Source: Colwellia sp. 39_35_sub15_T18
Lineage (GTDB): Bacteria; Pseudomonadota; Gammaproteobacteria; Enterobacterales; Alteromonadaceae
DNA length: 64,000 nucleotides
Direction: 5' to 3'
Assembly: GCA_002162675.1 (NCBI GenBank)
Contig: MAAE01000025.1
Location: 62,001 to 126,000 of the forward strand
Positions 10,252 through 52,130 of this stretch are shown here, in pieces (positions within the stretch are counted from its first letter, which is position 1; each line of letters starts with the position of its first letter). The translations under genes were made by a program, and so were the position numbers. A model generated the notes under the pieces. The model ran no database searches and had not been told where the DNA came from. It saw only the letters and a program-made list of their open reading frames with translations.

Positions 10252-12999
10252 TTAATTGTTCTGCTCTAATGGCAGACTTAATATTAATTGGCTACCGTTA
10301 TCTTGTTCATGAAATGTGTTGATTGAGCCTTTATGTTTACTGGCTATTTGACGAATATAATACATAGAGATATCAAACTTTATTTTGCTATCAAAATGAA
10401 TGAAACCTTGCTCGTCATCATAAATATTTAGCCAAACTTTGTTTTTAAACACTTGTAGCAACACTTTAAAATTTCGACCACTGCCTTTTATTACCACACA
10501 AGTTATGGCTTCAAATATTATCCGGTAAAGATCGGCTTGTAATTCATAGTTAAGGCTGTTGTCTTGAACATTTAGTTGATAAGTTAAATTAACTTGATAC
10601 TTGTGCTGCAAGTAATTGACGAAAAATGGCAACGCGATAGATAAAGTTTTGCCATCCAATGTATTTGGCTCAGGTGATGCTTGATGATTACCTAAATCAT
10701 CAAGACATTGTGCTAACAATGGTTTACTTTGCTCTACTTCGTCTTGGTTTATTAAATCTTGTACTAGGGTTAATTTTCTTTTTACTTGCAAGCTTACTTT
10801 GCCGTAATTATTGATATCATTCTTTAAAACATCATGAATATAGGCAATTGATTTACTGCGTAAATAGAGTAACCAAACGATTAAACCAACCACACAAAAT
10901 AACAGCAGGGCATAAAACAAACGAATTTTTGGTGTCCAATACCAAGGGAAGGCAACATCAATCTCAGTGTAGGCTTTAAAATTGCTCCATTGACCTAAGC
11001 TATTAGTGGCCATTATTTCAATGTGATATTCACCTGATGCTAAGCCGGTTAATGTTAATTGGTTACCATTAATTTGGTTCCAAGTGCTATTGTTTAAACG
11101 ATAACGAAACTGTTTTGGTGCTCCCGGTCTAAAGTCTAAGCTTGCTAAGTCTAAAGTAATCACATCATTACCACTGGCTATTGACATGGTTTTATTGAGT
11201 AAATAAGACTGACCTGAAATAGTCGTTTTGCTAATGTAAACTTTAGGGTTAAATTGCACTTGTGGAGCTAAATCTAAAGACAAAATGCCACTGTAATGGG
11301 AAGCGTAAACAATATTTTTATGTAATATAGTACTGCCGACAAAGGAATACTGCTCGGTATTTTCTATCATACTGAGTTGATAATTTCTCGGGTTAAAGCG
11401 ATATAAACCAGGCCTTCCTGCCACCCAAACTTCATCATTGACAAGTATCATATGACTAAATCGGTTACCTTGACCAAATTGAGCCAGTAATACCCCTTGT
11501 TTATTAAAGGCATAAATACCATCACCTAACGTAGAAGCAAATATTTTATTATCTGCTTCGAGTAAAGAAATAACTTTACTTGAGCTAGGTAAAGTTAAAT
11601 TTTCAATGGCTTTACTTTCGTTGATGACAATGTCGATGCCTGCTGTTGTGGCTAACCAAGTCGCGTCATTATCAAGGGGTAAAATATCAATGATCTCAGC
11701 TGAACTTAATCCATGCTCTGGTGCTATATGATCAATAAGTGATTTATTTGTTAAATCATAAATATAGACACCATTATGGTTAGTACTAAAATAAAGTAAG
11801 TTATCTTTATATTCCATTTTTAAAATAAGCTTATCATTATCAGAAAATGTTAATTTAGCAGTCTGCTGAGTTTCAGGGTTAAAACGCCATAGTCCATCAA
11901 AGGTTGCTATATATAATATGCCATTGATAGTTTCAATATTCGTGATGCTTAACCCTTGTTTGCTAAACGCTTCATTTACGTGATTATTAAAGACAGGTGA
12001 ATTAAAGTTTTGTAAACCAGCACCATAACTGCCAATGATAATTTCATCATTATATAATGCTAATTCATTGGCATTAATACTGATATCAAACACTTTTGGA
12101 ATATTTTTAATGGTACTCTCAGTGAGTTGGTTAATACCTTGACTACTTGCTACCCAAAGTACACCCGAACTATCATGTAGAAAACTTCTTGCCCTGACGG
12201 GGTTGGTATCACCAAATTTATGGGGGAGTTGCTCTAATGTTTTTCCAGAAAACTTGCTAACTATGCCTTGGCTACTGATGGTAAAAAAATTATTACTGCT
12301 GTATTCTTTTGTGGCGGCATAAATTTTGTGTGGTGATTCTATTGTTGTTTTATTGCCCTGATGATCAAAATGATAAATGTGTGTTTTAGCTATTGCTATA
12401 ACGCCAGAAGAAAGAGCAACAGTTGCTAGAATAGGCTCTGCTAGTAGTTGCTTTAGTTTGTTCTTTGAATCCAAGTTGTTTAACTGGTACAGGCCTTTTT
12501 TACTTGCTACGTAAAGGTGCTTATTATTATGTACTAACGTACTTATTTTAATATTATCTTTAATGAGGGAGATTGTTTTGGTATCGATATGATAACGATA
12601 AAGCTTGTCAGGAGCGTTGATAAAATAGCTGCCTTGAAAGCTGACTACGTCATAATAACTTTTACGTTCTATATCGGTAAATATTTTATCTGCTTGCCCA
12701 GTTTCAGGGTTAAAACGCCATAAACCATCGGTTTCTGTGGCTAATAATAAATGTTTTCCATCAAGAGTAACATCATGCAGCCAGTTAAATGATAGTGGCC
12801 ATGATTGATTGTTTGATGAAAAGCTGATGATTTGCTTACCATCAAAACGAGTGAGGCCACGCTGTCCAGCAAACCAAATAAAGCCTTTATTATCTTGTAC
12901 TAGACTACTGACATTAGCCATAGTACTTATCGATGATGTGTTATTTGCTAGGGAAGAAAAGCTATTAAGAATAGAAAAGCATAAAATAAGTGGCAGCAT
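10252..12999 (-). CDS. Two-component-regulator beta-propeller sensor with Y_Y_Y domain, TM helix and degenerate histidine-kinase-like C-terminus
   Basis: Repeated propeller units; FRYRLNNSTWNQI...LASGEYHIEIMATNSLGQWS Y_Y_Y region; TM LFYALLLFCVVGLIVWLLYL. The ORF extends to 13152 but a start at MLPLILCF (about 12999) avoids overlap with the upstream gene. Confidence 0.75.
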   Translation of the reverse strand: MLPLILCFSILNSFSSLANNTSSISTMANVSSLVQDNKGFIWFAGQRGLTRFDGKQIISFSSNNQSWPLSFNWLHDVTLDGKHLLLATETDGLWRFNPETGQADKIFTDIERKSYYDVVSFQGSYFINAPDKLYRYHIDTKTISLIKDNIKISTLVHNNKHLYVASKKGLYQLNNLDSKNKLKQLLAEPILATVALSSGVIAIAKTHIYHFDHQGNKTTIESPHKIYAATKEYSSNNFFTISSQGIVSKFSGKTLEQLPHKFGDTNPVRARSFLHDSSGVLWVASSQGINQLTESTIKNIPKVFDISINANELALYNDEIIIGSYGAGLQNFNSPVFNNHVNEAFSKQGLSITNIETINGILYIATFDGLWRFNPETQQTAKLTFSDNDKLILKMEYKDNLLYFSTNHNGVYIYDLTNKSLIDHIAPEHGLSSAEIIDILPLDNDATWLATTAGIDIVINESKAIENLTLPSSSKVISLLEADNKIFASTLGDGIYAFNKQGVLLAQFGQGNRFSHMILVNDEVWVAGRPGLYRFNPRNYQLSMIENTEQYSFVGSTILHKNIVYASHYSGILSLDLAPQVQFNPKVYISKTTISGQSYLLNKTMSIASGNDVITLDLASLDFRPGAPKQFRYRLNNSTWNQINGNQLTLTGLASGEYHIEIMATNSLGQWSNFKAYTEIDVAFPWYWTPKIRLFYALLLFCVVGLIVWLLYLRSKSIAYIHDVLKNDINNYGKVSLQVKRKLTLVQDLINQDEVEQSKPLLAQCLDDLGNHQASPEPNTLDGKTLSIALPFFVNYLQHKYQVNLTYQLNVQDNSLNYELQADLYRIIFEAITCVVIKGSGRNFKVLLQVFKNKVWLNIYDDEQGFIHFDSKIKFDISMYYIRQIASKHKGSINTFHEQDNGSQLILSLPLEQNN

Positions 13000-13027
13000 A
13001 AACTGCCACAGTACTTTAATATCTTTA

Positions 13028-13477
13028 TTAAATGATACTTTGAAAGTTGGTTTCGGGATGATCTCTTTGACCACAAGCGACAAAAACTTGCGGTAGTTCA
13101 TCGTCTGATGAGGGCTTTTGTACCAAAAGGTAAGTAGGTTTTCGTGGATCATCTGGGTGCTCTTTTACTGCCCAAGCTTGTTTTATTTTATCAGCATATT
13201 GCTGCCCGTATTTTACTGCGAAGGCTGTAGTAAGTATTTCAACACCAAAGTCATCCATTACCATCATAGTATTGCCATGGTAGCCACTTGTACTATCAAA
13301 ATCTATATCTACCGTTAAAATTTTATTTGATGGCAGTACTAAATCAGCACGTAGTTTTGCAACAACGGCTCTATCTGGATGTGATTTTAAATTGGTTCTA
13401 TTAGGCTTCTCTGTTAAATCGTACACTAGTTTAATATCATCATGTAGTCTTAATTCTTCTTTTTTTGCTGCAGTCAT
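13028..13477 (-). CDS. Conserved hypothetical protein
   Basis: 149-aa ORF between annotated neighbours, well-formed start region. Confidence 0.6.
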   Translation of the reverse strand: MTAAKKEELRLHDDIKLVYDLTEKPNRTNLKSHPDRAVVAKLRADLVLPSNKILTVDIDFDSTSGYHGNTMMVMDDFGVEILTTAFAVKYGQQYADKIKQAWAVKEHPDDPRKPTYLLVQKPSSDDELPQVFVACGQRDHPETNFQSII

Positions 13478-13653
13478 AATCTTTCCTTTTTACCGTGTAA
13501 AGTGATTAAATATTGAAGTGCTTTTAAAACAAAGCTCTTTTAATATAGCGAATATTTTTTTTTAAACAAGCAAAAAATCAATTAATTGATAGGCTTACTT
13601 AATGTCGTTAGGTAGAATAATATTTTCATATAAAATGTGGTAACGATAAACGG

Positions 13654-14898
13654 ATGAGTGATTTTGATTGTGTTGTTATTGGTGGGGGAATGGTTGGTGC
13701 CGCTAGTGCCTTAGCCTTGGCAGAACAAGGCTTGAAAGTTGCGGTTATTGAGAAACATCAGCCTGATACCTTTGCCAATGAACAAGCATTAGACTTGAGA
13801 GTGTCGGCTATTTCATTATCGTCTCAATATTTACTTGAACAACTTGGTGCATGGTCGCAAGTAAAAGAATGGCGTGCCTGCCCTTATAAGCGTTTAGGTG
13901 TTTGGGAGCAGGAATATGCTTATACAGAGTTTAATGCTCAAGATATAGAGCAAAAACATTTAGGGCATATTGTCGAGAATCGCCTAATACAGCTTGCTTT
14001 ATGGCAACAAATTGCAGCGCATGACCGCGTAAGCCTTTTTTGTCCTGAAAGCTTAGTTAATTTAGAACAAGATAATGATAAGGTGACGTTAACGCTTTCA
14101 CAACATACTATTACTGCAAAATTAGTTATTGGCGCTGACGGGGCAAATTCACAGGTACGTAAGCTAGTTAATATCGGTATTACCGCATGGGATTATCAGC
14201 AATCAGCCATGTTGATTAATGTTGAAACGACACTTGGCCAGCAAGATATTACTTGGCAGCAGTTTTTTCCTACCGGACCTGTTGCCTTTTTGCCTCTGTC
14301 CAAACCGTTATCAAAACCTTTATCAAAGCAATCGCTTGCAAGTAAACAAGATGAACATAAAAAAAATGTTGGTTATGCTTCATTAGTTTGGTATCACCAG
14401 CGTGATGAAATTAAACGTTTATCATTATTATCAAATGCCCAGTTACAACAAGAAGTCTTAGCTCACTTCCCCAAACGATTAGGGGAAATTAAAGTGATTG
14501 ATAAGGCTGCTTTTCCGCTTACTCGTCGACATGCCAATAGTTATCAAAATAATAGAGTCTTGTTGCTTGGTGATGCCGCTCACACTATTAACCCGATGGC
14601 AGGTCAGGGTGTTAACTTAGGTTTTAAAGATGTTGTTGCTCTGCAAAATGTTATTGCTTCAGCAATCGCCGAGGGAAAATGTTGGCATAATATTGAGGTG
14701 TTAGCTCACTATGAAAAAATGAGACGTAAAGACAATTTATTAATGCAATCAACCATGGATGCTTTATATTTTAGCTTTAGCCACCCATCACCATTAGTAA
14801 AGTTATTACGAAATATAAGTTTGTTCGCGATTAATAAATTACCTGTTGTTAATAGTACCATCAAAAATAAAGCTTTGGCTTATGCCTGCGGTTTATAG
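13654..14898 (+). CDS. UbiH/UbiF/VisC family FAD-dependent monooxygenase
   Basis: VVIGGGMVGAASALALAEQG FAD motif; RVLLLGDAAHTINPMAGQGVNLGFKD. Confidence 0.92.
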   Translation: MSDFDCVVIGGGMVGAASALALAEQGLKVAVIEKHQPDTFANEQALDLRVSAISLSSQYLLEQLGAWSQVKEWRACPYKRLGVWEQEYAYTEFNAQDIEQKHLGHIVENRLIQLALWQQIAAHDRVSLFCPESLVNLEQDNDKVTLTLSQHTITAKLVIGADGANSQVRKLVNIGITAWDYQQSAMLINVETTLGQQDITWQQFFPTGPVAFLPLSKPLSKPLSKQSLASKQDEHKKNVGYASLVWYHQRDEIKRLSLLSNAQLQQEVLAHFPKRLGEIKVIDKAAFPLTRRHANSYQNNRVLLLGDAAHTINPMAGQGVNLGFKDVVALQNVIASAIAEGKCWHNIEVLAHYEKMRRKDNLLMQSTMDALYFSFSHPSPLVKLLRNISLFAINKLPVVNSTIKNKALAYACGL

Positions 14899-38796: not shown

Positions 38797-39326
38797 AATT
38801 AGGCAGATGTCCAACGTGTCACGCCGCTGTTCACGTTGATGCCATGGTTCAGGATGAAGCAGGTAGAGAATTAATGGCCACACTGGCTAAATTGAATAGT
38901 AAAACGGGCAGTAGTGTTTTGCAATATGTAGGTTTATTTCGCCCAGCTAAAAGTGATTTAAACAATGGCCGAGCGTTAAAGTTACTTACCGAAGCATTAG
39001 AGTTAACCCCTAATTTACAATTACTTTCGGCTGGTTGTGATGCAACTGTGCGCAATATTCATGGTAAACGTAGCTCTTCACAAGGAACGGGCGAAACCGT
39101 TAAACCGTTAACCAATCACAACTACTTAAAACAAGTTTTAACAGGGCTTAAAGAGCAGTTTAATCACCCCGTTAACGGCATGAAAAGTGGTGCTAAAAAA
39201 GCAACTGATATGGGTAATGCTCAAGTCAAACATTACCACACGTTAAGTGATGTTGAGAATGAGCGTCTTCGCCAGGAACAATTAGCCAAGTTTAAAGTAA
39301 GTAAAAGAGCAGGAGAAAGCGCATGA
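38793..39326 (+). CDS. Phage hypothetical protein with N-terminal CxxC
   Basis: MKLGRCPTCHAAVHVDAMVQDEAGRELM. Confidence 0.6.
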   Translation: MKLGRCPTCHAAVHVDAMVQDEAGRELMATLAKLNSKTGSSVLQYVGLFRPAKSDLNNGRALKLLTEALELTPNLQLLSAGCDATVRNIHGKRSSSQGTGETVKPLTNHNYLKQVLTGLKEQFNHPVNGMKSGAKKATDMGNAQVKHYHTLSDVENERLRQEQLAKFKVSKRAGESA

Positions 39327-39742
39327 GCCAGCAAGAATCGTTAACCCTTGATTTAGGAAGTGATGACAACCTCAATGATTTATTAGCGCATAGCGACAGC
39401 TTGGCCAATGATGACCTCGCATGGCCTAAAATGTTAGCTGACTTAATTACCGTTAATGTTGCCGAACTAAAAGATGATGGCTTTGAACATAACGAAGCAT
39501 GGCGTATTGCCAAACGTTTGATCATACGTCAATCACACTTCTTAGGTGGTGGCATGGTCTATTTACCACGTAACGACAAACTTAAAAAAGCCTTGCGTGA
39601 TGCCAATTTGTACCATGATTTTAATGGCCATAACCACAGGGCGTTAATGAAAAAATATGATCTTACTCAGCAATCGGTTTATCAGATATGTGCAGAGCAA
39701 CGTCAGTTGTTCATTGATAAGAGGCAGGGGAAGTTGTTTTGA
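39323..39742 (+). CDS. Mor/C family transcription activator
   Basis: YLPRNDKLKKALRDANLYHDFNGHNHRALMKKYDLTQQSVYQICAEQR. Confidence 0.88.
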   Translation: MSQQESLTLDLGSDDNLNDLLAHSDSLANDDLAWPKMLADLITVNVAELKDDGFEHNEAWRIAKRLIIRQSHFLGGGMVYLPRNDKLKKALRDANLYHDFNGHNHRALMKKYDLTQQSVYQICAEQRQLFIDKRQGKLF

Positions 39743-39994: not shown

Positions 39995-40351
39995 ATGAAA
40001 AAAGAACAGGCAGAAGCTGAGAAAGCAAGAATACGAGAACAAGCACGTTTACGCAAGCAAAAACAACGGGCTAAAAAGGCTGAGCTAGTGGTGAAAACCT
40101 TGGAAGTAAACGCCAGTGCTACCGAGCAACAGCAACTTAATGAGCAAGCTATAACGCGAGGCTTTGATAGTATCAGTGAATATTTAATGACACTGATGCG
40201 TATTGATGGTGATCGCATTGAACATGATCAAGCAGCTATTGGTACTTGCAATAGTTGTAAATTGCCATTACCACAAGGCTGTAACGCTGTTTTTAAAGGG
40301 CAGTTTGATTGTAGTTATATTCATGGCTTGCCGTTGATGAGTGTTAAGTAG
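39995..40351 (+). CDS. Phage hypothetical protein, basic coiled-coil N-terminus
   Basis: ORF start behind AAGGTGT. Confidence 0.5.
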   Translation: MKKEQAEAEKARIREQARLRKQKQRAKKAELVVKTLEVNASATEQQQLNEQAITRGFDSISEYLMTLMRIDGDRIEHDQAAIGTCNSCKLPLPQGCNAVFKGQFDCSYIHGLPLMSVK

Positions 40352-40454: not shown

Positions 40455-40543
40455 TCGCTTATCAAATATATGTAAACAAATCCTAAACACTTACTTTTAA
40501 GTAGGTGTTTCATTTTGAATTGTTCAAGGAGTTAATTATTTCA

Positions 40544-41044
40544 ATGGAAGCCTCAAATAAAATTCAGGGAATATTGCCGCCAGTGTTCATGGAAAAAGTA
40601 AGAAATGGACAAATTAAAGGTATGCCTACAGAATTACGAGACAATTTATTAAATGGGAAAATTAAAGGCTTACCACCAGAAATAATAGAAGCTTTCGAAG
40701 CTGGTACAGTTAATCAAGGGATCCCTCCTGAAGTTTTGGAAAAAATGGGTAATGGTCAAATGAAGCCAGGCATACAGCACAGAAGAGCTTCAAAGTATTC
40801 TGTTGAGTCGGTAACTGGTGCTGTATGCCACCAATTGAATGATAATAGGCTTGAATTATCATTTTACGCAGATCGCCCTGTTTGTGAATTTGAACTTCTT
40901 CCAGCCCTAGGAGAAAAAGGTGGTGAAATACATAGCGTTCCAACAAAAGAACATGTTACTGCTATAAACGTTTCATTAGATGATTTGAAAAATATACATG
41001 AAATGCTTTCAACTGTAATTGATAGAATGGAGCAAAGTAAATAA
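40544..41044 (+). CDS. Unknown protein with four ~16-aa GxPPE...NGxIK repeats
   Basis: ATG 40544 preceded by AAGGAG; repeats GILPPVFMEKVRNGQIK/GMPTELRDNLLNGKIK/GLPPEIIEAFEAGTVNQ/GIPPEVLEKMGNGQMK. Confidence 0.65.
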   Translation: MEASNKIQGILPPVFMEKVRNGQIKGMPTELRDNLLNGKIKGLPPEIIEAFEAGTVNQGIPPEVLEKMGNGQMKPGIQHRRASKYSVESVTGAVCHQLNDNRLELSFYADRPVCEFELLPALGEKGGEIHSVPTKEHVTAINVSLDDLKNIHEMLSTVIDRMEQSK

Positions 41045-41616
41045 TGCAAAGCATTGTTTCTACAAGCACCAAAGAATACGCTAATGATACTTCAATGGAT
41101 AATACTTTGATTTCATTAAGTTCAACTTCAATATCGTCTATTGCTTCAGTTAGTTCTATTTCAGTTGGGTCAGGAGTGACTTCTAGGACAATCTCATCTG
41201 TTGGTTCTGCAGGGATAATGGGAGCTGCATTGGCTGCATTCATTGCAGTTAATCCAGCCTTACCCCTTAAATTTAATGAACTAATATCTTTAGATTCATC
41301 TATAATGAGTGAAGCAAAGGAAAAAGATTCTTTTGTAGATAATATGCTACAAGTTAAAAGTACAAATGTGCTTGAGACTACTACTCTGACAGAGAGAGTT
41401 GCGATGGAAAATGATTTAGTCAAAAAAGAAAAGATATTAAAGCTAGGGGTTAATATTTCTTCGCTTGGCTGCATTCTTTTAGTTGGGGCTGCCGTATCAG
41501 GCATTCTTCCTGCTCTTACATGGATACCTGGGGCATTTTCAGCAGCAGGAGTCTTACTTTCTTGTGGCATTCAATTAAATAAAGTGGATGAAAAACGCAA
41601 AGGGTTGAGCACATAA
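41044..41616 (+). CDS. Unknown Ser-rich membrane protein, about two hydrophobic segments
   Basis: AGIMGAALAAFIAVNPALPL and LGCILLVGAAVSGILPALTWIPGAFSAAGVLLSCGIQL. Confidence 0.6.
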   Translation: MQSIVSTSTKEYANDTSMDNTLISLSSTSISSIASVSSISVGSGVTSRTISSVGSAGIMGAALAAFIAVNPALPLKFNELISLDSSIMSEAKEKDSFVDNMLQVKSTNVLETTTLTERVAMENDLVKKEKILKLGVNISSLGCILLVGAAVSGILPALTWIPGAFSAAGVLLSCGIQLNKVDEKRKGLST

Positions 41617-41617
41617 A

Positions 41618-41893
41618 ATGGCTTTTTTAGAACCATTGTTAAATTTTTTTCCTAATTTAGTTAAATCATTAACAAAAGCATTTCCAAAAAGTGATAATCA
41701 TAAGCTTAATATGATTTTTGATATATTGGGCTTTGTTGTCTTGATTGTTCTTGCGGGTATGTGGTTTGATAAAATGCCTAAAGTTACATTCGAGCAATCA
41801 AGCCAAATAGCGGAACTTTTAGCATATCCTTTTGTCTTTTGGTTTGTCTTTTCTTTGATTTGTTATTTAACGACATTATTTAAATCAAAATAG
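41618..41893 (+). CDS. Small membrane protein, two predicted TM helices
   Basis: MIFDILGFVVLIVLAGMWF and YPFVFWFVFSLICYLTTLF. Confidence 0.6.
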   Translation: MAFLEPLLNFFPNLVKSLTKAFPKSDNHKLNMIFDILGFVVLIVLAGMWFDKMPKVTFEQSSQIAELLAYPFVFWFVFSLICYLTTLFKSK

Positions 41894-41927: not shown

Positions 41928-41992
41928 ATTGCCTTAAATTTATCAAATAAGTTAAATTCGTTATTAGACTATCCATTTAAAATAGATTCAGA

Positions 41993-42049
41993 AGCATTAA
42001 TGCTGTTGAATCTCACCTAACTTAACCATGCCGCCATACTGGCGGCATG
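41993..42049 (+). promoter_or_regulatory. 57-bp late-control element, copy 1, ending on the endolysin ATG; 10-bp inverted repeat 42027-42049
   Basis: AGCATTAA-N7-GAATCTCA-N11-CATGCCGCCA-TAC-TGGCGGCATG. Confidence 0.75.
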
Positions 42050-42613
42050 AAACAAAATAACCTACCACATAAAATATTACTCGTTGATGATTCGCTACCA
42101 CCGGTAGCGAGTCAGGCCATTCTACGCATCCTTGAAGAAGAAAAAGGTTACGTTAATAACCCTAATGATAAAGGTCTTGAAACCAAGTATGGTATCACTA
42201 AACGCTGGTATCCAACCCTTGATATTAAAAACCTCACCTCAGTAAAAGCTTCGAAAATTTATTATCGTGATTATTGGTGTTTCAATAAGTGCGATAAGTT
42301 GCCGCAAGATATTGCCTTAACGCTTTTTGATAGTGCCGTAAACCAAGGGGGGAACTTCGCCCGTAAAGCTTTGCAACAAACTTTAAACGTTAAAGCAGAC
42401 GGTATTATTGGCAGTAAAACTATTGCGGCTGCCTTTGCTGCTCCTAGCCTTATTTTAATTACACAATTTACCCGATTGCGTTGCCAGCAATATACTAATT
42501 TAGTTCAAGCTGATATTAGCCAAGTTGAATTTATTGAAGGTTGGGTTGATCGCGCCTTAGATATTCTCCTTGAATGCCAGATAATTGCCGTATTTGGTGG
42601 TGATGCCCCATGA
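42047..42613 (+). CDS. Endolysin, glycosyl hydrolase 108 plus PG-binding domain
   Basis: ILRILEEEKGYVNNPNDKGLETKYGITKRWYP...LFDSAVNQGGNFARKALQQTL. Confidence 0.92.
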   Translation: MKQNNLPHKILLVDDSLPPVASQAILRILEEEKGYVNNPNDKGLETKYGITKRWYPTLDIKNLTSVKASKIYYRDYWCFNKCDKLPQDIALTLFDSAVNQGGNFARKALQQTLNVKADGIIGSKTIAAAFAAPSLILITQFTRLRCQQYTNLVQADISQVEFIEGWVDRALDILLECQIIAVFGGDAP

Positions 42614-42879
42614 CTCACGCCTTTAATTCAATCAAAGCCCGTAAACGATACTTTGAAGGTCGCCAAGCACGACTGCGCAAAGAAGTATTTAGCCGTTTGC
42701 AAGATTTACCTATTAATTACAGCTGTGTTTATCTTCGCCCTGAACATGCACGGCAGTACCGTCGTGGTTGGGATAGTGTCACGGCAATAGATATTGATGT
42801 AGCCGTTAAAAAAGTAAAAGCAGGTCAAGCCAAGTTACTACCTGAAACGCCACGCGTCCTTGGAGTGAATCATGCCTAG
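42610..42879 (+). CDS. Phage hypothetical protein
   Basis: ATGA-coupled ORF. Confidence 0.55.
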   Translation: MTHAFNSIKARKRYFEGRQARLRKEVFSRLQDLPINYSCVYLRPEHARQYRRGWDSVTAIDIDVAVKKVKAGQAKLLPETPRVLGVNHA

Positions 42880-43291
42880 CAATAAAACGAGAAAACATAA
42901 AAAGTCGCCTTATTTTATTGGCCGAGTACTCACGCACTGGTTGGCGCTAGAGTCTCGAAAAATGTTACTAGAAGAATCGTTTTCTTTTGTAGATGGCAAA
43001 GGTATTAAGTGGACAGCTCCTGCTGGCTCTATTATTGATGGTGCCAGTATTCCTCGCATTTTTTGGTACTGCATTGGCTCGCCATTTAACGGTCATTACC
43101 GCCGTGCCAGCGTGATACATGATGTTTATTGTGTCACTAAATCACGCCCTCACAAGCAAGTACACCGTATGTTTTATGACGCTATACGCGCTGATGGCGT
43201 AAGAAAAAGTAAAGCAAAAGCTATGTATATCGCTTTGAAAATTGGCGCACCTCGTTGGAAAAATTACCAAGAAAAAAGGAAAGGAATATGA
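42872..43291 (+). CDS. DUF1353 family protein
   Basis: APAGSIIDGASIPRIFWYCIGSPFNGHYRRASVIHDVYC. Confidence 0.9.
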   Translation: MPSNKTRKHKKSPYFIGRVLTHWLALESRKMLLEESFSFVDGKGIKWTAPAGSIIDGASIPRIFWYCIGSPFNGHYRRASVIHDVYCVTKSRPHKQVHRMFYDAIRADGVRKSKAKAMYIALKIGAPRWKNYQEKRKGI

Positions 43292-43506
43292 AAAAGATAA
43301 CTTTAATGGTGTTAGTTGCACTCACTACTGCTTGCTCAAGCTATGAATTTGGCGATGTTTCACGTGTTTATTGTGCTACTACAAGCACTGAACTTCGAGC
43401 CCAAATTAAAGTCACGCTAAAAGAAAACGGGGTAAGTATTGGCGTTGATTACTGTGCCAGTGCTGGCTTAGTTGATGCCATTTTAATTAAAAGCCCTAAG
43501 GAATAA
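43288..43506 (+). CDS. Small lipoprotein in the lysis region
   Basis: MKKITLMVLVALTTACSSYEF lipobox; ATG 43288 behind AAGGAA. Confidence 0.65.
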   Translation: MKKITLMVLVALTTACSSYEFGDVSRVYCATTSTELRAQIKVTLKENGVSIGVDYCASAGLVDAILIKSPKE

Positions 43507-43508
43507 CC

Positions 43509-43739
43509 ATGACTGACGTAGTAGATAAAGCTTGTGAACTTGAACAAAAACAGCGTGAACAAGCATTAGCTGCGGCTAGAGTGACAATAGAAAAGCCTAA
43601 GGAATTACATGGTCATCGTTATTGCCTTGACTGTGATCTTGAGCTAGATACAAATCGCTTAATTGCTAACCCAAAAGCAGTGCGTTGTGTTGATTGTCAA
43701 ACCTTGCTTGAGCATAAAAATAAGAGGTTTTATCCATGA
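43509..43739 (+). CDS. TraR/DksA-type C4 zinc finger protein
   Basis: HRYCLDCDLELDTNRLIANPKAVRCVDCQTLLEHK. Confidence 0.85.
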   Translation: MTDVVDKACELEQKQREQALAAARVTIEKPKELHGHRYCLDCDLELDTNRLIANPKAVRCVDCQTLLEHKNKRFYP

Positions 43740-44038
43740 TTAATTGGTTGCTGAAGTATTACCCTTTGGTATTTTTAGTGTTTAACGGTGTGTTTTGGCT
43801 AATTGTTTATGTATTGCATAAAACCTATGCCAAGCGTGAATCAGTAGACAATTTAGAAAAAGAGGTGCTACTGATTAAAACCAACATTAATAACCTGCCT
43901 GATAAAGATTTAGTGCATAAGTTAGAGCTGCGTATTGAAGAATTAAGCGGTGACATTAAGCGAATAGAACCAGGGCTTATCTCTGTTAAAAATTTATCTG
44001 ACATGTTGTTAGAAAACGAGTTGAAAAGTAAAGGCTAA
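43736..44038 (+). CDS. DUF2730-like membrane protein
   Basis: N-terminal TM plus coiled coil; position as in Mu-like phages. Confidence 0.7.
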   Translation: MINWLLKYYPLVFLVFNGVFWLIVYVLHKTYAKRESVDNLEKEVLLIKTNINNLPDKDLVHKLELRIEELSGDIKRIEPGLISVKNLSDMLLENELKSKG

Positions 44039-44050
44039 AAGGAAAAAACA

Positions 44051-44344
44051 ATGGCGATAGACAAAGTAATGAGCGAACACCAACGACTATCAATTTTATT
44101 AGCTCTTGGCGCAATGAATGGTTACCAAACTAATGATTCAATGCTGCAAAGTGCTTGTGCGGCTTATGGTCATACCATGAGCAATGACCGAGTGTTAAGT
44201 CATTTAGCCTGGTTAAAAGAACAAGGTTTAGTGTCATTAGAAAGCAATGGCGCCTACACCATGGCAACTTTATCAGGTCGTGGCCAAGATGTAAGCAACG
44301 GTATGGCTACTTGCCCAGGTGTTAAAAAACCGAGGGCTAAGTAA
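44051..44344 (+). CDS. VpaChn25_0724-like (winged HTH) phage protein
   Basis: HQRLSILLALGAMNGYQTNDSMLQSACAAYGHTMSNDRVLSHLAWLKEQGLV. Confidence 0.7.
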   Translation: MAIDKVMSEHQRLSILLALGAMNGYQTNDSMLQSACAAYGHTMSNDRVLSHLAWLKEQGLVSLESNGAYTMATLSGRGQDVSNGMATCPGVKKPRAK

Positions 44345-44622
44345 TGGCTAAAATTAAAGCTTTTACTGCAGGTGAAAAACGAGTTTTTCACAAGTTAGCT
44401 TTAGCAATGATTGCTGCAGAAATAGAAAGCCAAGTAATTAAACCTGCGACTGAAAAGGAAACGGGTAAGCCATATCAGTCAAAAGGCGGTTATTTAGATA
44501 TTTATTTAAAGAGTGATCCAACAGTTAAGCGTGTTTGGAATGCTTTTCAAAAAGAAGTTCAAAAGGTTCGTAGTGACTATTTAAAATATGCGGAGGCAGA
44601 GAAAGCTAATGAAGGAACGTAA
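44344..44622 (+). CDS. Phage hypothetical protein
   Basis: Packed ORF. Confidence 0.5.
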   Translation: MAKIKAFTAGEKRVFHKLALAMIAAEIESQVIKPATEKETGKPYQSKGGYLDIYLKSDPTVKRVWNAFQKEVQKVRSDYLKYAEAEKANEGT

Positions 44623-45181
44623 AACACGCGGAAAACCCTCAAAAGTTAACCAGCTGCCCGATGCGATTAAAAGCAAACTTGATCAACTGCTTCGAGATGG
44701 TCGATTAACGCAAACAGCCATCCTCAACAAAATCAATAAAATGATTGAAGAGGCTGAGCTTGCACAAGACGAGCAGCTGAGTAAATCAGGGTTAAATCGT
44801 TACTCAAGTAAAATGCAAGAAATAGGCTCACGTATCGCTCAAGCACGTGCAGTGTCTGAGCAATGGGTTGCTAAGTTAGGCGACAAGCCAAGTGGCGATG
44901 TCAGTAAAATATTGATTGAAATGGTACGGACTTTAGCGTTTGACAGCGTATTAGATGCCTCTAATTCAGACCAACCAGTACATCCTAAATTTATCAAAGA
45001 CCTTGCTATAGGTATTGAAAAACTAGAGAAAGCAGCAACAGAATCAACTAAACGTGAGAAAGAAATTCGTAAGGCGTTTGCTGAAGAAGCGGCGGCACTG
45101 GTGGAAGATGCAGTGGTGCAAGCAGGCTTAACCAGTGATGGTGCTAATGCCATTAAACGTGAAATTTTAGGTATTGTCTAA
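44588..45181 (+). CDS. DUF3486 / Mu gp27-like small terminase
   Basis: RGKPSKVNQLPDAIKSKLDQLLRDGRLTQTAILNKIN. Confidence 0.88.
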   Translation: MRRQRKLMKERKTRGKPSKVNQLPDAIKSKLDQLLRDGRLTQTAILNKINKMIEEAELAQDEQLSKSGLNRYSSKMQEIGSRIAQARAVSEQWVAKLGDKPSGDVSKILIEMVRTLAFDSVLDASNSDQPVHPKFIKDLAIGIEKLEKAATESTKREKEIRKAFAEEAAALVEDAVVQAGLTSDGANAIKREILGIV

Positions 45182-46794
45182 TGACTAACATGACGTCTGA
45201 TTTTAGAAAAACTAAACTAGCAGTTGAAATGGGAGACTATACACCATTTGACGAAAATGAATTATTACTCGGTTATCAAAAACGCTGGATAGCCGACGAA
45301 TCACCGTTAAAGATAGCCGAAAAATCTCGTCGTACTGGGTTAACTTGGGCTGAGGCTGCCGATGCGGTATTAGCTGCCAGTAAAACTAAAGCTGCCCACG
45401 GTACTAATCACTTTTATGTTGGCTCAAACAAAGAGATGGCGCGCGAGTTTATTGACGCGGCCGCTATGTGGGCGAAAGCCTTTGATAAAGCTGCAGGTGA
45501 TATTAAAGAAGATATATTCATTGATTCAGGGCAAGACGGTAAAGAAATTCTCACCTTTGCCATTCACTTTGCCAGTGGTTTTAAAATTCAAGCTTTAAGC
45601 TCAAACCCGTCAAATCTTCGTGGTATGCAAGGTAACGTCACCATTGATGAAGCTGCTTTTCATGACCGACTAGCTGAAGTACTCAAAGCAGCCTTGGCGC
45701 TTACCATGTGGGGTGCAAAAGTACGTTTAATATCAACTCACAATGGCACCGACAACTTATTCAATAACATTATTCAAGATAGCCGTGCAGGTAAAAAACG
45801 TTACTCAGTACATCGTATTACCTTAGATGATGCTTGTAACGAAGGTTTGTATCAACGTATTTGCCAAATTAAAGGTGATACTTGGAGTCGTGAAAAAGAG
45901 CAAGCATGGAAAGATGGTTTACTCGGTGATACAGCAACAGAAGACGATGCCTTAGAAGAATACTTTTGTGTGCCTAAGCAAGGCGGTGGTGTTTATATCA
46001 AGCGCGTTCTGGTTGATGAGGCCATGAAATCTGATATTCCTATTTTACGTTTTACTGCAGACAAAGATTTTTTAACGTGGTCAGTACGGCATAAACAAAT
46101 GCAAATTAAAGAATGGCAAGAGTCATTAAATCCGCATTTAATCGCCCTTAAAAAAGACTTAAATCATGCTTTCGGTGAAGATTTTGCCCGTAAAGGGGAT
46201 TTATCAGTATTTGTGCCATTACAAATAAATAAAGACTTAAGCAAACGTGTGCCGTTCTTACTGGAAATGAGCAACCTCACTTACGATGCCCAAAAAGAGT
46301 TGTTGTTTTATTTATGTGATCGACTACCTAGATTACAAGGTTTAGCCTTTGATGCTACGGGTAATGGTGGTTATTTAGCTGAGGCAGCTGCAGAGCATTA
46401 TGGCTGTGAAATGGTTGAGCAAGTCATGCTAACCGATAAATGGTACATGGAATGGATGCCTAAGCTTAAAGCTGAGTTTGAAGACTTCAATTTAGAAATT
46501 CCTCGTCACCAAGATGTGCAAGATGATCTTAACCAAATTCAAACCATTCGTGGTATTCCAAAAATAGACAAAGGCAGTACTAAAGGCAGTGATGGTCGTC
46601 AACGCCATGGTGATACCGCTGTAGGCTTAGCTATGGCCATTCGTGCCAGTTGGATGGATGGTGGGGTAATTGAATATACAGAGTTATCTCAAAAAGCGGG
46701 TACTTGGCACCAAAGCGAAAAAACCTTAAAAGATTACATGCGATCTGATCACAGTGGCGACAACCAACAGAATTATGACCAAGGAGCTTATTAA
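45181..46794 (+). CDS. Terminase large subunit (Mu gp28-like)
   Basis: LLLGYQKRWIADESPLKIAEKSRRTGLTWAEA; GLAFDATGNGGYLAEAAAEHYG. Confidence 0.92.
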   Translation: MTNMTSDFRKTKLAVEMGDYTPFDENELLLGYQKRWIADESPLKIAEKSRRTGLTWAEAADAVLAASKTKAAHGTNHFYVGSNKEMAREFIDAAAMWAKAFDKAAGDIKEDIFIDSGQDGKEILTFAIHFASGFKIQALSSNPSNLRGMQGNVTIDEAAFHDRLAEVLKAALALTMWGAKVRLISTHNGTDNLFNNIIQDSRAGKKRYSVHRITLDDACNEGLYQRICQIKGDTWSREKEQAWKDGLLGDTATEDDALEEYFCVPKQGGGVYIKRVLVDEAMKSDIPILRFTADKDFLTWSVRHKQMQIKEWQESLNPHLIALKKDLNHAFGEDFARKGDLSVFVPLQINKDLSKRVPFLLEMSNLTYDAQKELLFYLCDRLPRLQGLAFDATGNGGYLAEAAAEHYGCEMVEQVMLTDKWYMEWMPKLKAEFEDFNLEIPRHQDVQDDLNQIQTIRGIPKIDKGSTKGSDGRQRHGDTAVGLAMAIRASWMDGGVIEYTELSQKAGTWHQSEKTLKDYMRSDHSGDNQQNYDQGAY

Positions 46795-46796
46795 CT

Positions 46797-48419
46797 ATGG
46801 CTAACAACACGGCTAACCCCATTCAAACCGATAGCAACGGCAATAAGTTCCGCATTAAATATTTAAAAGAGCAGCAAACTGATGATGCCAAACTTGGCCA
46901 TTTACGCAACCATTACAGTGACCACCCAAGCAGAGCATTAACACCACAAAAACTAGCCGATATTCTAATAGGTGCAGAACAGGGTAATATTATTGCCCAG
47001 TGTGAACTAGCTGAAGACATGGAAGAAAAAGACGGTCATGTATTTGCTGAACTGCAAAAGCGCCGCCGTGCTTTGTTGGGTGTCGATTGGAAAATAGTGC
47101 CGCCGCGCAATGCCAGTGCAAGCGAGGTTAAAGACGCTGAAATGCTGCAAGAGCTATTCGAAGATATGACCTTTTTAGATGATGTCATCTTTGACATGTC
47201 TGATGCTATTTTAAAGGGGTTTTCTAATCAAGAGATCACTTGGCAACAGCAAAGTGTAGGTGCAAGCAAAGTGTGGCTACCATCTAATATTGAGTTTAAA
47301 GATCCCAGTTGGTTTATGACTCACCCAGCGCAAGAGTTAGGACAAAACCGCAATGAACTACGCCTGCGCGATAACAGCGCTGATGGTGAAGCATTACAGC
47401 CCTTTGGTTGGATCTCTCATTGTCATAAAACTAAATCAGGTTACTTAGCCCGCTCAGGCTTAACGCGTGTACTGGCTTGGCCGTATCTATTTAAAAATTA
47501 TAGTGTCCGTGATTTAGCCGAATTTTTAGAGATTTATGGTTTACCGCTTCGCCTTGGTAAATACCCAACAGGTGCTAGCCCAGAAGAAAAAAACACCTTA
47601 CTTAATGCCGTAATGAGTATTGGCCACAATGCAGGTGGCATTATTCCTAAAGGTATGGAAATAGATTTTCAAGAAGCAGCCAAAGGTACACAGCAGCCGT
47701 TTGAATATATGGTTAGTTTGATGGAAAAAACTATCTCTAAAGCTATTCTTGGCGGCACACTTACCAGCCAAGCAGACGGTAAAAGCTCAACCAATGCCTT
47801 GGGTAATGTACATAACGAAGTTCGCCAGGAACTGCGCGATAGTGACCTAAAACAAATTGCCAATACCTTAACGCGTGATCTCGTTTTTCCCATGTATTAC
47901 TTAAACGGCAAAAGTTATCAGCACCCACAACGGTGCCCGAAGTTTGAATTTGACATCACCGAAGCGGAAGACTTAAAAGCGTTCGCGGATTCTTTACCTG
48001 CGTTAGTTGATGTTGGTTTTAAAATCCCACTGAACTGGGCACAAGAAAAGGTACAAATACCTTTACCCAAAGATAACGAAACTGTTTTAGCTAAAGGTCA
48101 GTTAGTGGAAGAAATTGACGAAAGAAGCACACAAACAAAACTAAAAGCTATTCGCAAAATAGCGGCGCTTAAAGCTAAATCAGTAGCGCCTGAACAATTA
48201 GACAGCTTCACCAAGCAACTTACCAATGAAATGTCATCTGTTCTTCAAGGTTTTACAGGTGAAGTGCAGCAGCTGGTGGAGCAAGCTGAGTCATTAGAAG
48301 ATCTGCAATTATTACTAGCAGATTTAGATTTAGACGTAAATGAAGCAAACGAAGTGATGCAGCAAGCTTTTGTGGCCGCAGAGCTTGGCGGTCGTTTTGA
48401 TGTAAATGAAGGCGAATAA
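46797..48419 (+). CDS. Portal protein, DUF935 / Mu gp29-like
   Basis: FAELQKRRRALLGVDWKIVPP; GFSNQEITW; GGTLTSQADGKSSTNALGNVHNEVR. Confidence 0.93.
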   Translation: MANNTANPIQTDSNGNKFRIKYLKEQQTDDAKLGHLRNHYSDHPSRALTPQKLADILIGAEQGNIIAQCELAEDMEEKDGHVFAELQKRRRALLGVDWKIVPPRNASASEVKDAEMLQELFEDMTFLDDVIFDMSDAILKGFSNQEITWQQQSVGASKVWLPSNIEFKDPSWFMTHPAQELGQNRNELRLRDNSADGEALQPFGWISHCHKTKSGYLARSGLTRVLAWPYLFKNYSVRDLAEFLEIYGLPLRLGKYPTGASPEEKNTLLNAVMSIGHNAGGIIPKGMEIDFQEAAKGTQQPFEYMVSLMEKTISKAILGGTLTSQADGKSSTNALGNVHNEVRQELRDSDLKQIANTLTRDLVFPMYYLNGKSYQHPQRCPKFEFDITEAEDLKAFADSLPALVDVGFKIPLNWAQEKVQIPLPKDNETVLAKGQLVEEIDERSTQTKLKAIRKIAALKAKSVAPEQLDSFTKQLTNEMSSVLQGFTGEVQQLVEQAESLEDLQLLLADLDLDVNEANEVMQQAFVAAELGGRFDVNEGE

Positions 48420-48421
48420 TT

Positions 48422-48559
48422 ATGCTAGCCAAATTCATTAAACGATATAAGCGTTGGCATAATCGTTATCAGTTTAATAGGCTAACTATTATTGACCAAA
48501 AGTTATTTAAATTTCTTGAGCTTGATCCTGATTCACTTATCAAAAGAGGTGAGTTATGA
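48422..48559 (+). CDS. Small phage protein (45 aa)
   Basis: MLAKFIKRYKRWHNRYQFNR...IKRGEL; ATGA overlap with the MuF gene. Confidence 0.45.
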   Translation: MLAKFIKRYKRWHNRYQFNRLTIIDQKLFKFLELDPDSLIKRGEL

Positions 48560-49968
48560 CAGCCCGTTATGGCTCTTTACCCTTTAAAGAGGCGATAAGT
48601 TTTTTTCAAAATAAGTTAAACATACCGTCAGAACGTTGGGTTGATGTTTGGCGTGATGGCCATAACAGCGGCTTTATGGTCGCTGGTGCATTGAAAGATG
48701 ATTTGCTTAACGATTTTCGAAGAGCGGTTGATAGTGCGATAGCAGAAGGCAAAAGTATTGGTTGGTTTAAAAAAGAATTTAAAACCATTGTCGCTAAGCA
48801 CGGCTGGAGCCATACAGGTGAAGCCAATTGGCGTGCTAAAGTGATTTACGATACCAATATGAGACAAAGTTATAATGCTGGCCGGTATGAGCAGCTGCAG
48901 CACTTTGACTTTTGGGAGTATCAACATGGCGACAGCGTGCACCCAAGAGCAATGCACTTATCCTGGCACGGAACTGTTTTACCCAAAGAACATGACTTTT
49001 GGCAAACACACTTTCCACAAAATGGTTGGGGCTGTAAGTGTAAAGTGCGAGGCCGAACAGCTAAACAATTAGAGCGCCAAGGTAATAAAGTAAAGCTACC
49101 ACCTAAGACTGAAATTACCGAGTGGACAGATAAAGCCACAGGCAAAGTACATAAAATACCGAAAGGTATTGATCCAGGTTTTGATTATGCCCCGCGAAAA
49201 GTCGTAGTTAAGCAACAGCAACAAAAGCTTAGTGTTGAAAAAGCTAAGCCATTTGAACCACCAGAACGTATAGCCCCAACAGCATTTAGTACGGTAAAAG
49301 GTGCTGATGTTCATAGTTTAAATAGTAAATTAGCTGAATTTAAAACCGCTAAGCCTCAGTTTGACTTACTTGGTAAATTTTTAACAAAACACGAGGTTAA
49401 AACGTTATTTGTTAAAGCAAGTGAAATGACACCTCGCAGTAAAGCATCAAGGAAAATTAATGATGCGGTTATGGCTTATTTGCCTGACGCAGTTAAAAAG
49501 TATGGTCACAATAATTATACTTATCGCGCTAAAAGAGGCGCTATGCCTAACGGCTGGACGGCAGCAGAGCTTAATCATATAACTGTAAAGCTTGAGAGTA
49601 ACGCCAATTTTAACAAAGTAAATGTGAGTGAACTGATTAACGTAGTAGAGCTTGCTATACTTCAAGGTAAAGGCAATATTCCTCGTACATTATCTTCGAT
49701 AATTAGACACTGGGGAGATAGCGGTAATCATGGTGGTGCTATTATTACTTGGTTACATGAGCTTGGTCACCAAGTACATTTTAAAGCAGGTAGTCCTAAG
49801 CCACCTATGAACCGCAATATTAGTTTAACGCGGTACGGAAGTGATTTAGATGTTGAGTGGCATGCAGAGCACTTTGCTGCTTGGATGTTAAATAGAGAAG
49901 CGCTTGCTCGGTGGAATAATAACATTGCCGTGTATTTTGATAATTTGATGAAGAAGGCTTTACAATGA
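48556..49968 (+). CDS. MuF/gpF-like head morphogenesis protein with C-terminal zincin-like metallopeptidase domain
   Basis: MuF: YDTNMRQSYNAGRYEQ...HFPQNGWGCKCKVRGRTAKQL; C-terminus WLHELGHQVHF...EWHAEHFAAWML. Confidence 0.85.
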   Translation: MTARYGSLPFKEAISFFQNKLNIPSERWVDVWRDGHNSGFMVAGALKDDLLNDFRRAVDSAIAEGKSIGWFKKEFKTIVAKHGWSHTGEANWRAKVIYDTNMRQSYNAGRYEQLQHFDFWEYQHGDSVHPRAMHLSWHGTVLPKEHDFWQTHFPQNGWGCKCKVRGRTAKQLERQGNKVKLPPKTEITEWTDKATGKVHKIPKGIDPGFDYAPRKVVVKQQQQKLSVEKAKPFEPPERIAPTAFSTVKGADVHSLNSKLAEFKTAKPQFDLLGKFLTKHEVKTLFVKASEMTPRSKASRKINDAVMAYLPDAVKKYGHNNYTYRAKRGAMPNGWTAAELNHITVKLESNANFNKVNVSELINVVELAILQGKGNIPRTLSSIIRHWGDSGNHGGAIITWLHELGHQVHFKAGSPKPPMNRNISLTRYGSDLDVEWHAEHFAAWMLNREALARWNNNIAVYFDNLMKKALQ

Positions 49969-50225
49969 GTTCGCTTGATAAAATGCTAAACAAAATGAAA
50001 ACAGATCCTATTAACCATAGCGTACCTTTACCTTTGGTTGATGAGGCTTTTGTTGTTATTAGCAGCATAGGTCTAACTTTTACTGAAAAGAAAATTCGCA
50101 TTGAACGACTAGAGCAACAAGCAAAAGGTTACGAGCTAACCTGTTTTTCTGATGTTCATGAATCATTAATAGTTACCTCTAGCATAGATGAGTTATCAGC
50201 ATTAAATGATTCAGAGCAAGACTAA
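49965..50225 (+). CDS. Small unknown protein directly after the MuF fusion
   Basis: 86-aa ATGA-coupled ORF. Confidence 0.6.
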   Translation: MSSLDKMLNKMKTDPINHSVPLPLVDEAFVVISSIGLTFTEKKIRIERLEQQAKGYELTCFSDVHESLIVTSSIDELSALNDSEQD

Positions 50226-50665
50226 TGGCAGGTTCATTCGTTAGCGTTGATGTTCGTGGCCAAAAACAAATAAGCCAGGCATTAAACCGTTTATTAAAGC
50301 AAGGTAGTGATCTTGAACCTGCCTTTAGGGACATTGGCGAGTATTTACTTGAGTCAACCCAACAGCGTTTTATTGATCAACAAGCACCAGACGGTGAACC
50401 ATGGGAGCCGTTATCACCTCGCACCCTTAAAAAGAAAAAGCGCCAAGACAGAGTACTCACCGAAACAGGCACGTTAGCAGATACACTTAATTATCAATTA
50501 GGCGCTAATCAATTAACGTTTGGTTCAAACCTTGAGTATGCATCAACCCATCAGTTTGGACGTGAAGCTGACGGCATACCTGCACGACCATTTTTAGGTG
50601 TTGCCCCATTTGAACGAATAGAAATACTCGATATTTTACGTGATCATTTAATTGATGGTATTTAA
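50225..50665 (+). CDS. Phage virion morphogenesis protein (Mu gpG-like)
   Basis: AFRDIGEYLLESTQQRFIDQQAPDGEPWEPLSPRTL...READGIPARPFLGV. Confidence 0.92.
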   Translation: MAGSFVSVDVRGQKQISQALNRLLKQGSDLEPAFRDIGEYLLESTQQRFIDQQAPDGEPWEPLSPRTLKKKKRQDRVLTETGTLADTLNYQLGANQLTFGSNLEYASTHQFGREADGIPARPFLGVAPFERIEILDILRDHLIDGI

Positions 50666-50849
50666 TGCTACTCAATGATTTAACTCAAAGCCCTGTAAGC
50701 GATTTTATCGCCTTAAGTTGTAAATCTGGTATATTGCCCTAAGAAATTTAAACAAATTCAACTGAGAGGTTTTTAAACGGGTGTTAAATGGGTGTGTTGA
50801 TTGAATATAACTACCTAGAGATTACCCCTTAAGAAAACAACTTGAATTT

Positions 50850-50906
50850 AGCATTAACCCCCCTGAATCTCAGCAATTAACCTCATAACGTCATACTGGC
50901 GTTATG
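50850..50906 (+). promoter_or_regulatory. 57-bp late-control element, copy 2, ending on the gene-I ATG; inverted repeat 50884-50906
   Basis: AGCATTAA-N7-GAATCTCA-N11-CATAACGTCA-TAC-TGGCGTTATG. Confidence 0.75.
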
Positions 50907-52130
50907 AAAATACTTCTAGCACAAAAAGCAACCAAAAAATCACTTAGCCAAGACATAGGTCTTGCCGTTCTAACCAAGCAAGCTGCAACAAATGTGGCTG
51001 TGCTCACGTTTGGTGGTTGCGCTATTGCCTCACTATCTAGTAAAGGCGAAAGTAACCGCGTACAAATTTTACCTGATGGTTATTTTGTGCCAACCGATGG
51101 CCGTGAAGTCGATGTAGAAGGTGGGCAGTGGTTGATGGATGCACAAGCATTCGCCTCTTTAACAGCAAATATTTCCCTACGTAAAAACGACTTTATGTTT
51201 GATTACGAACATCAAACACTTTACACCGAACAAAATGGCAAGCCTGCTCCCGCTGCTGGTTGGTTTAAAAAATTAGACTATGTGCCAGGTGAAGGGTTGT
51301 TTGCTGTCAATGTCGATTGGACGCCAACAGCCACTAAACATATTAGCGATAAAGAATATCGTTATACCTCTGCTGTTTTTTCTTATGACCTTAAAACAGG
51401 TCGCCCCATTGAATTAATGCACGTTGCATTAACCAACGAGCCAGCACTTGATGGCATGAAAGCTATTGCGGCTTTAAAAACAAAAAATCACTTAACTGGC
51501 AAATCTGCCCCCTCAACTGGAGATATCCCAATGAATGAAGCCTTAAAACTCATGCTTGATTTGTTAGGCGTTGCACATACCGATGATGATTTATCGAATG
51601 TGGCGGCGTTAACTGCAATTCAAGATAAAGCCAAGGTGGCCATTGCTGCGCTTAAGAGTAAAGCAGATCAAGCAGGTCAACTTGAAAAAGATTTAAATAC
51701 TGCACAAACATCGGTTACCGCGCTAAAAGCTACTGCAGCGAACACTAATGGTGCTGTTGATTTAGCTAAATTTGTCCCTGTTGAAACCTATAACGCGCTA
51801 GCTACTAATTTTGCCGCTTTAAAAGCAGGGAGTGATAGCAACTCGGTTGAGCAGTTACTAAAAGACAACACTGACAAAGTGTTTGAATCTGAAATTGGCT
51901 ACTTAACGGATTTTGGCAAACAGCAAGGTTTTGCCGCATTAAAAACCATGGTTGATGCTCGCCCTGTGATTGCGGCCTTAAAAACCACCCAAACAAAAGG
52001 CAAAGAAAAGCCTGGTGAAACTAACACAGGCATAGCGGCACTTACCGCTGAGCAAAAATACACCGCTGATCAACTTGGTCTTAGTCATAAAGATTTTCTA
52101 GCAACACTTAATAATAAGGAAACTAAATAA
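50904..52130 (+). CDS. Mu gpI-like protease/scaffold
   Basis: FDYEHQTLYTEQNGKPAPAAGWFKKLDY...MHVALTNEPALDGMKAIAAL. Confidence 0.9.
   Translation: MKILLAQKATKKSLSQDIGLAVLTKQAATNVAVLTFGGCAIASLSSKGESNRVQILPDGYFVPTDGREVDVEGGQWLMDAQAFASLTANISLRKNDFMFDYEHQTLYTEQNGKPAPAAGWFKKLDYVPGEGLFAVNVDWTPTATKHISDKEYRYTSAVFSYDLKTGRPIELMHVALTNEPALDGMKAIAALKTKNHLTGKSAPSTGDIPMNEALKLMLDLLGVAHTDDDLSNVAALTAIQDKAKVAIAALKSKADQAGQLEKDLNTAQTSVTALKATAANTNGAVDLAKFVPVETYNALATNFAALKAGSDSNSVEQLLKDNTDKVFESEIGYLTDFGKQQGFAALKTMVDARPVIAALKTTQTKGKEKPGETNTGIAALTAEQKYTADQLGLSHKDFLATLNNKETK

Follow-up and report, generated by a model that had tools for sequence, protein, structure and literature searches.

Candidate Mor/C-type late promoters nested in start-codon hairpins at lys and gene I of a Mu-like prophage of Colwellia

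Two copies of a 57-bp element lie in a Mu-like prophage of Colwellia sp. 39_35_sub15_T18, within a stretch of 64,000 nt (contig MAAE01000025.1, positions 62,001 to 126,000; hereafter the window, with positions counted from its first letter). Copy 1 (41993-42049) ends in the ATG of the endolysin gene lys (GH108; 42047-42613) and copy 2 (50850-50906) in that of a gene I homologue, for a Mu-like head maturation protease (50904-52130); the predicted transcription starts are at 42047 and 50904. Upstream of both is a gene for a Mor/C-family late activator (39323-39742; Pfam Mor, 4e-27; PHROG late transcriptional activator), 37% identical to Mu C and 32% to Mu Mor, which is presumed to act on both elements. 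All of these features are on the forward strand. An initial annotation of the window had named the three gene products, which Pfam and PHROG matches confirm; its two copies, with their coordinates and spacing, were exact on re-reading the window sequence, as were the ATGs (42047 and 50904) that form their last three bases.

The layout common to both copies is AGCATTAA-N7-GAATCTCA-N11, followed by a 10-3-10 dyad that ends in the ATG. The copy 1 dyad (42027-42049) is made of a 5' arm at 42027-42036, a loop at 42037-42039 and a 3' arm at 42040-42049 (arms CATGCCGCCA/TGGCGGCATG), and the copy 2 dyad (50884-50906) of a 5' arm at 50884-50893, a loop at 50894-50896 and a 3' arm at 50897-50906 (arms CATAACGTCA/TGGCGTTATG), each 3' arm including the ATG. 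Between the copies two stem pairs are changed compensatorily, and copy 2 has one U.G wobble; the covarying stem noted earlier is thus real. Recurrence of the element is exact and far beyond chance. The only exact matches to the 23-bp motif, in the window and in the 4.0-Mb genome, are the two copies themselves, when about one match would be expected in the window even with three mismatches allowed, and a covariance model scanned over the window scores them at 78 and 76 bits. The next match reaches 18 bits, so the window holds no third high-scoring copy. The initial annotation had expected further late operons bearing the element; it was found at lys and I only, and the exact genome search and the model scan of the window lend no support to others in this prophage. 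No Rfam match to the element was found. An in-frame TAA lies just ahead of the 5' arm at lys, and another inside the 5' arm at gene I; since these make a translation start further upstream impossible, the two ATGs are not annotation guesses.

A better parse of the upstream block is ATTAA-N6-TGAAT, which forms an imperfect 5-6-5 inverted repeat (ATTAA-TGCTGT-TGAAT at 41996-42011 in copy 1; ATTAA-CCCCCC-TGAAT at 50853-50868 in copy 2; both forward, and both from -51 to -36 relative to the predicted start). On the Mu middle promoter Pm, Mor uses a 5-6-5 inverted-repeat site centred at -43.5 (PMC4390567). With +1 set at the A of the ATG, the center of ATTAA-N6-TGAAT also falls at -43.5, with nothing fitted, and the site is kept across 12 aligned elements. 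Architecture and position support reading the upstream half as a Mor/C-type activator site, to which binding is predicted from the sequence. The copy 1 site lies within a larger near-palindrome, GATTCAGAAGCATTAATGCTGTTGAATC (41987-42014), which also gives a reverse-strand match and is missing in copy 2.

The hexamer CATACT sits at the center of each dyad, six bases ahead of the ATG (42035-42040 and 50892-50897, forward strand; -12 to -7). The initial annotation overlooked it as a candidate -10 element, which would place the start of transcription at the A of the ATG. This position was surveyed in a non-redundant set of 87 starts of I and lys, drawn by sampling from the order and the class and from viral contigs and phage records. 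The pattern nAnnnT lies exactly six bases before the ATG in 43 of 87 (other spacers, 1 to 10). When starts are clustered at 60% protein identity, 23 of the 48 clusters have it at that position, for a background rate of 7.3% (P ~4e-14). In these 23 clusters A at -11 and T at -7 are present by definition, while spacing, the base at -1 and Shine-Dalgarno (SD) status are informative: a pyrimidine is at -1 in all 23, and an SD sequence in none. The late lys and I mRNAs are predicted to be leaderless, with the A of the ATG as their first base. No promoter was detected at the element in a sigma-70 scan, as expected because the promoter would be activator-dependent and lacks a -35 box. The spacer from -6 to -1 is often GGCGGC among 23 leaderless-type starts, even where the hairpin is weak (L208, L212), a frequency that the hairpin alone does not explain. 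In Pasteurella phage Pmp9 (L207), the ATG at 11536 is preceded by CATTAT-GGCGGT, and the annotated gene I start, TTG at 11482, is probably wrong. At gene I of Fc02, CAGAGT-GGCGCC precedes the ATG, which predicts a leaderless gene.

The dyad itself has the properties of an RNA hairpin. Both copies fold far more stably than shuffled sequences, copy 1 at -18.8 kcal/mol (z -5.9) and copy 2 at -13.5 (z -4.4). Among the 23 leaderless-type representatives, the mean z for folding the segment from -26 to +6 is -3.4, versus 0.05 for control starts (150 other gene starts from the same loci; P 6e-12), and a stem score of at least 20 is reached by 39 of 87 focal starts versus 31 of 911 control starts; judged by position, at least three of the top-scoring controls themselves open late operons. 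A count of base pairs spanning the predicted start gave no signal (114 versus 156 expected), but this is a poor measure because leaderless hairpins lie almost wholly upstream of +1, and fold z-scores with controls were used instead. Among 18 dyads of the same register, both sides change in six of ten pairs, with a covariation score of 0.47 versus 0.18 when shuffled and 0.04-0.13 when partners are slid. Stem pairs 4-10 include eight G.U versus one A.C, several of the eight being of shared ancestry; this is expected of pairing in the sense RNA and not of a strand-symmetric DNA site. Compensatory changes and sense-strand wobbles support an RNA hairpin at the AUG. We also considered an intrinsic terminator at the window dyads and rejected it: there is no T-run, A-rich coding sequence follows, and no terminator was called. 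A second strong hairpin, TTCGCTACC-ACC-GGTAGCGA, lies in the first lys codons (42086-42113) and would be present in a leaderless mRNA.

The initial annotation proposed looking for more copies in related phages, and these exist: about ten related Mu-like phages carry the element at lys and I with identical spacing. A search of 2.9 million viral contigs found AGCATTAA-N7-GAATCTCA in 10 stretches, all except L024 with a dyad ending in ATG at the same spacing; relatives with the element include Colwellia psychrerythraea ND2E (L031), L032, L033, L035/L123, L028 and L030. A family-wide covariance-model search gave strong matches, two each, under two further genome handles; G798 is probably the genome of L033, as the gene I start is identical. 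L230 and L231 bear the full element next to genes of unconfirmed identity (short pieces or no long frame called). The weak matches in family genomes, those under 28 bits, were left out of the count as a group; of the ones inspected, L232 shows the full layout at a lys homologue, and L236 has a hairpin that does not end in ATG. The more distant L043 and L045 keep the lys hairpin and ATG with a different upstream site, TTTACTAAC(T/A)CAGGTTAATAC, so that upstream site and hairpin are separable parts.

As an independent test of the start, the sequence from -64 to -26 of gene I was matched elsewhere in the same locus, ignoring genes. A standout match was found in 19 phages, and 13 of the 19 have nAnnnT at the same offset (P ~3e-11). 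Most of the matches fall where the lysis operon begins, 8-11 kb upstream of gene I. Among the remaining cases, the candidate is shifted by one or two bases in L188 and L207, and L195 is a chance match inside gene I. What follows the match varies: the ATG hairpin of the leaderless layout in L032, L190 and L196, a hairpin masking an SD-like sequence in L174 and L199, and a terminator with its T-run immediately ahead of the ATG in L194, L184 and L164. By eye, the 5' arm at these matches is wholly or mostly upstream of the predicted start, and at the 13 second-promoter sites the fold across the start has a mean z of -4.3 versus -0.2 at random positions. Shewanella phage MuM16-1 and Pseudoalteromonas phage HS6 have, by eye, CCCGAAAC-type sites 20 bp before nAnnnT at both late operons, with the hexamers CATCAT, GACAAT, CACAAT and CATACT.

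Some of these loci hold additional material. In L167, about 1.1 kb ahead of gene I, the activator-type site is closely matched once more (TACTAACCCGCGTTTATGC); this may be a third late promoter, serving cargo between G and I. In MuM16-1 (L205), 10567-13840 may be a cargo slot: located between a G-like gene and the promoter of gene I, it holds genes that include one for an RNA-directed DNA polymerase. Between activator and lys in the window, the open reading frame (ORF) 39995-40351 has a match to PHROG 536, a family of transcriptional regulators whose role is unknown, and three consecutive ORFs (40505-41044, 41044-41616 and 41618-41893) have no Pfam or PHROG match and are possibly cargo.

From the element, its conservation and covariation, the position of its -10 hexamer and the fixed spacing of its activator site, all of them evident in the comparison, we infer activator binding, a start site, leaderless translation and a translational block, and consider it probable that each element is a Mor/C-activated late promoter nested in an RNA hairpin. 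The initial annotation had offered an activator site or a start-codon hairpin; both are supported, the upstream half being Mor/C-like and the dyad hairpin-like, and it is the exclusive choice that falls away. The activator would bind ATTAA-N6-TGAAT at -51 to -36, replacing a -35 box, and the mid-dyad CATACT would direct transcription from the A of the ATG, yielding leaderless lys and I mRNAs. RNA entering from upstream would hold both arms, fold and hide the AUG; with the AUG folded away, and with no SD sequence, such read-through RNA would give no endolysin or protease. The late mRNA would lack the 5' arm, leaving the start codon free. Several observations weigh against this proposal. CATACT is a weak -10 with no -35 at all, and the half-sites match imperfectly (ATTAA versus ATTCA, one mismatch). 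In L208 and L149 the hairpin is slight or missing although the -10 spacing is retained, and gene I of Vibrio ZX4290 has neither. The 18 dyads were picked for inner pairing, so their paired percentage is not independent, and many of the sequences share ancestry.

The dyad is symmetric and spans -20 to +3, and its core CGCCATACTGGCG is nearly invariant among the closest relatives, as might be expected if it were instead a DNA operator, at which a repressor dimer covering the -10 and the start silences lys and I in the lysogen with no functional RNA hairpin. We regard this as unlikely, given that stem sequences vary widely between phages while pairing is kept, that departures are mostly G.U, which pairs in the sense RNA only, and that the corresponding position in relatives is occupied by a terminator or by a hairpin masking an SD sequence. 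A dispersed operator, present for example at early promoters, was rejected, the core having no other exact copy in the genome. The hairpin could also be a by-product of constraints on the -10 and discriminator, without translational control, the promoter and leaderless start being as proposed; the GGCGGC 3' arms that persist despite a weak hairpin suggest such a discriminator constraint. Yet the 5' arm, on which no promoter role imposes complementarity, follows each change in the 3' arm, and in relatives the versions with a terminator or a masked SD sequence suggest that incoming RNA is what is controlled, making a mere by-product quite improbable. Least credible to us is a start of transcription further upstream, with a hairpin in the late mRNA leader that hides the AUG until an RNA-binding factor opens it: this would suit a covered AUG and a missing SD sequence, but leaves unexplained both the -10-like hexamer that 23 of 48 clusters have exactly six bases ahead of the ATG and the activator site at -43.5 from the ATG.

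Extending the nested-promoter reading from the window to Mu-like phages as a group, we lean towards the view that their two main late promoters are embedded in self-removing hairpins: initiation at such a promoter would itself delete the 5' arm, while upstream RNA would be stopped by a masked AUG, a masked SD sequence or a terminator. In a large subset, including the window, the start would be the AUG itself, and the lysis and head operons would begin with leaderless genes. This would explain why transcription that leaks in from upstream leaves the endolysin and head protease of the prophage unexpressed, transcriptional and translational control being combined in one element. Leaderless genes in Gammaproteobacteria are usually considered rare and weak; the proposal predicts leaderless translation of strongly expressed late genes there, and whether phage infection favors leaderless initiation becomes directly testable. 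The rule of nAnnnT, six bases, ATG and hairpin would also find late promoters and correct start codons in Mu-like phages. We found no description of leaderless or hairpin-nested late promoters in Mu-like phages in the open-access literature, which is weak evidence of novelty.

Parts of the arrangement are familiar from other phages. The lambda cI mRNA from PRM is leaderless and encodes a low-level repressor. The window mRNAs are likewise predicted to begin at the AUG with no SD sequence, and their candidate -10 fits the spacing of roughly six or seven bases to the start codon that is expected of leaderless mRNAs, but they come from late genes for lysis and the head, and their promoter is fused with a hairpin. 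Mu Pm, activated by Mor, resembles the window in its 5-6-5 site, which in the window comes with a phage-encoded Mor/C-family activator, but Pm drives the middle operon and no start-codon hairpin has been reported at it (PMC4390567). The C-activated Mu promoters Plys and PI (PMC4461284) share with the window the same two genes, the activator family, a site replacing the -35 and a weak -10. Their activator site differs in sequence, and in Mu the messages of lys and I carry a short leader in which a ribosome-binding site is annotated (AF083977), and the start codon lies outside the hairpin; the initial annotation had recognized that the window departs from the Mu layout. Mu PI carries a CTGCTCA-N10-TGAGCAG stem, with the SD sequence after the hairpin; on our own reading of the oligonucleotides (20 nt beyond the start; PMC4461284), its start is at about the end of the first stem arm, and Mu may be a relaxed case of the nested-hairpin layout. 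In T4, gene e (lysozyme), soc, 49 and I-TevI have hairpins that block translation, and transcripts from their late promoters lack the 5' part of the hairpin (PMC3014915; PMC2988022). Hairpins at gene I of L136, L140, L146 and L187, which by eye mask an SD-like sequence and have a -10-like hexamer in the loop, come close to this T4 version. In the window, fold and covariation point to a stable hairpin hiding the AUG, and a transcript from the promoter, as placed by the predicted -10, would lack the 5' arm; as at gene e, read-through RNA would hide the lysis-gene start and late transcripts would begin inside the hairpin, without that arm. Late transcription in T4 depends on a sigma factor of the phage's own, and a leader with an SD sequence remains on the transcript; in the window the promoter would be of Mor/C type, there is no SD sequence, the start is predicted to be the AUG itself, and the elements form a matched pair at lys and I. 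The best reading of the window elements is the logic of T4 gene e, here with predicted leaderless starts.

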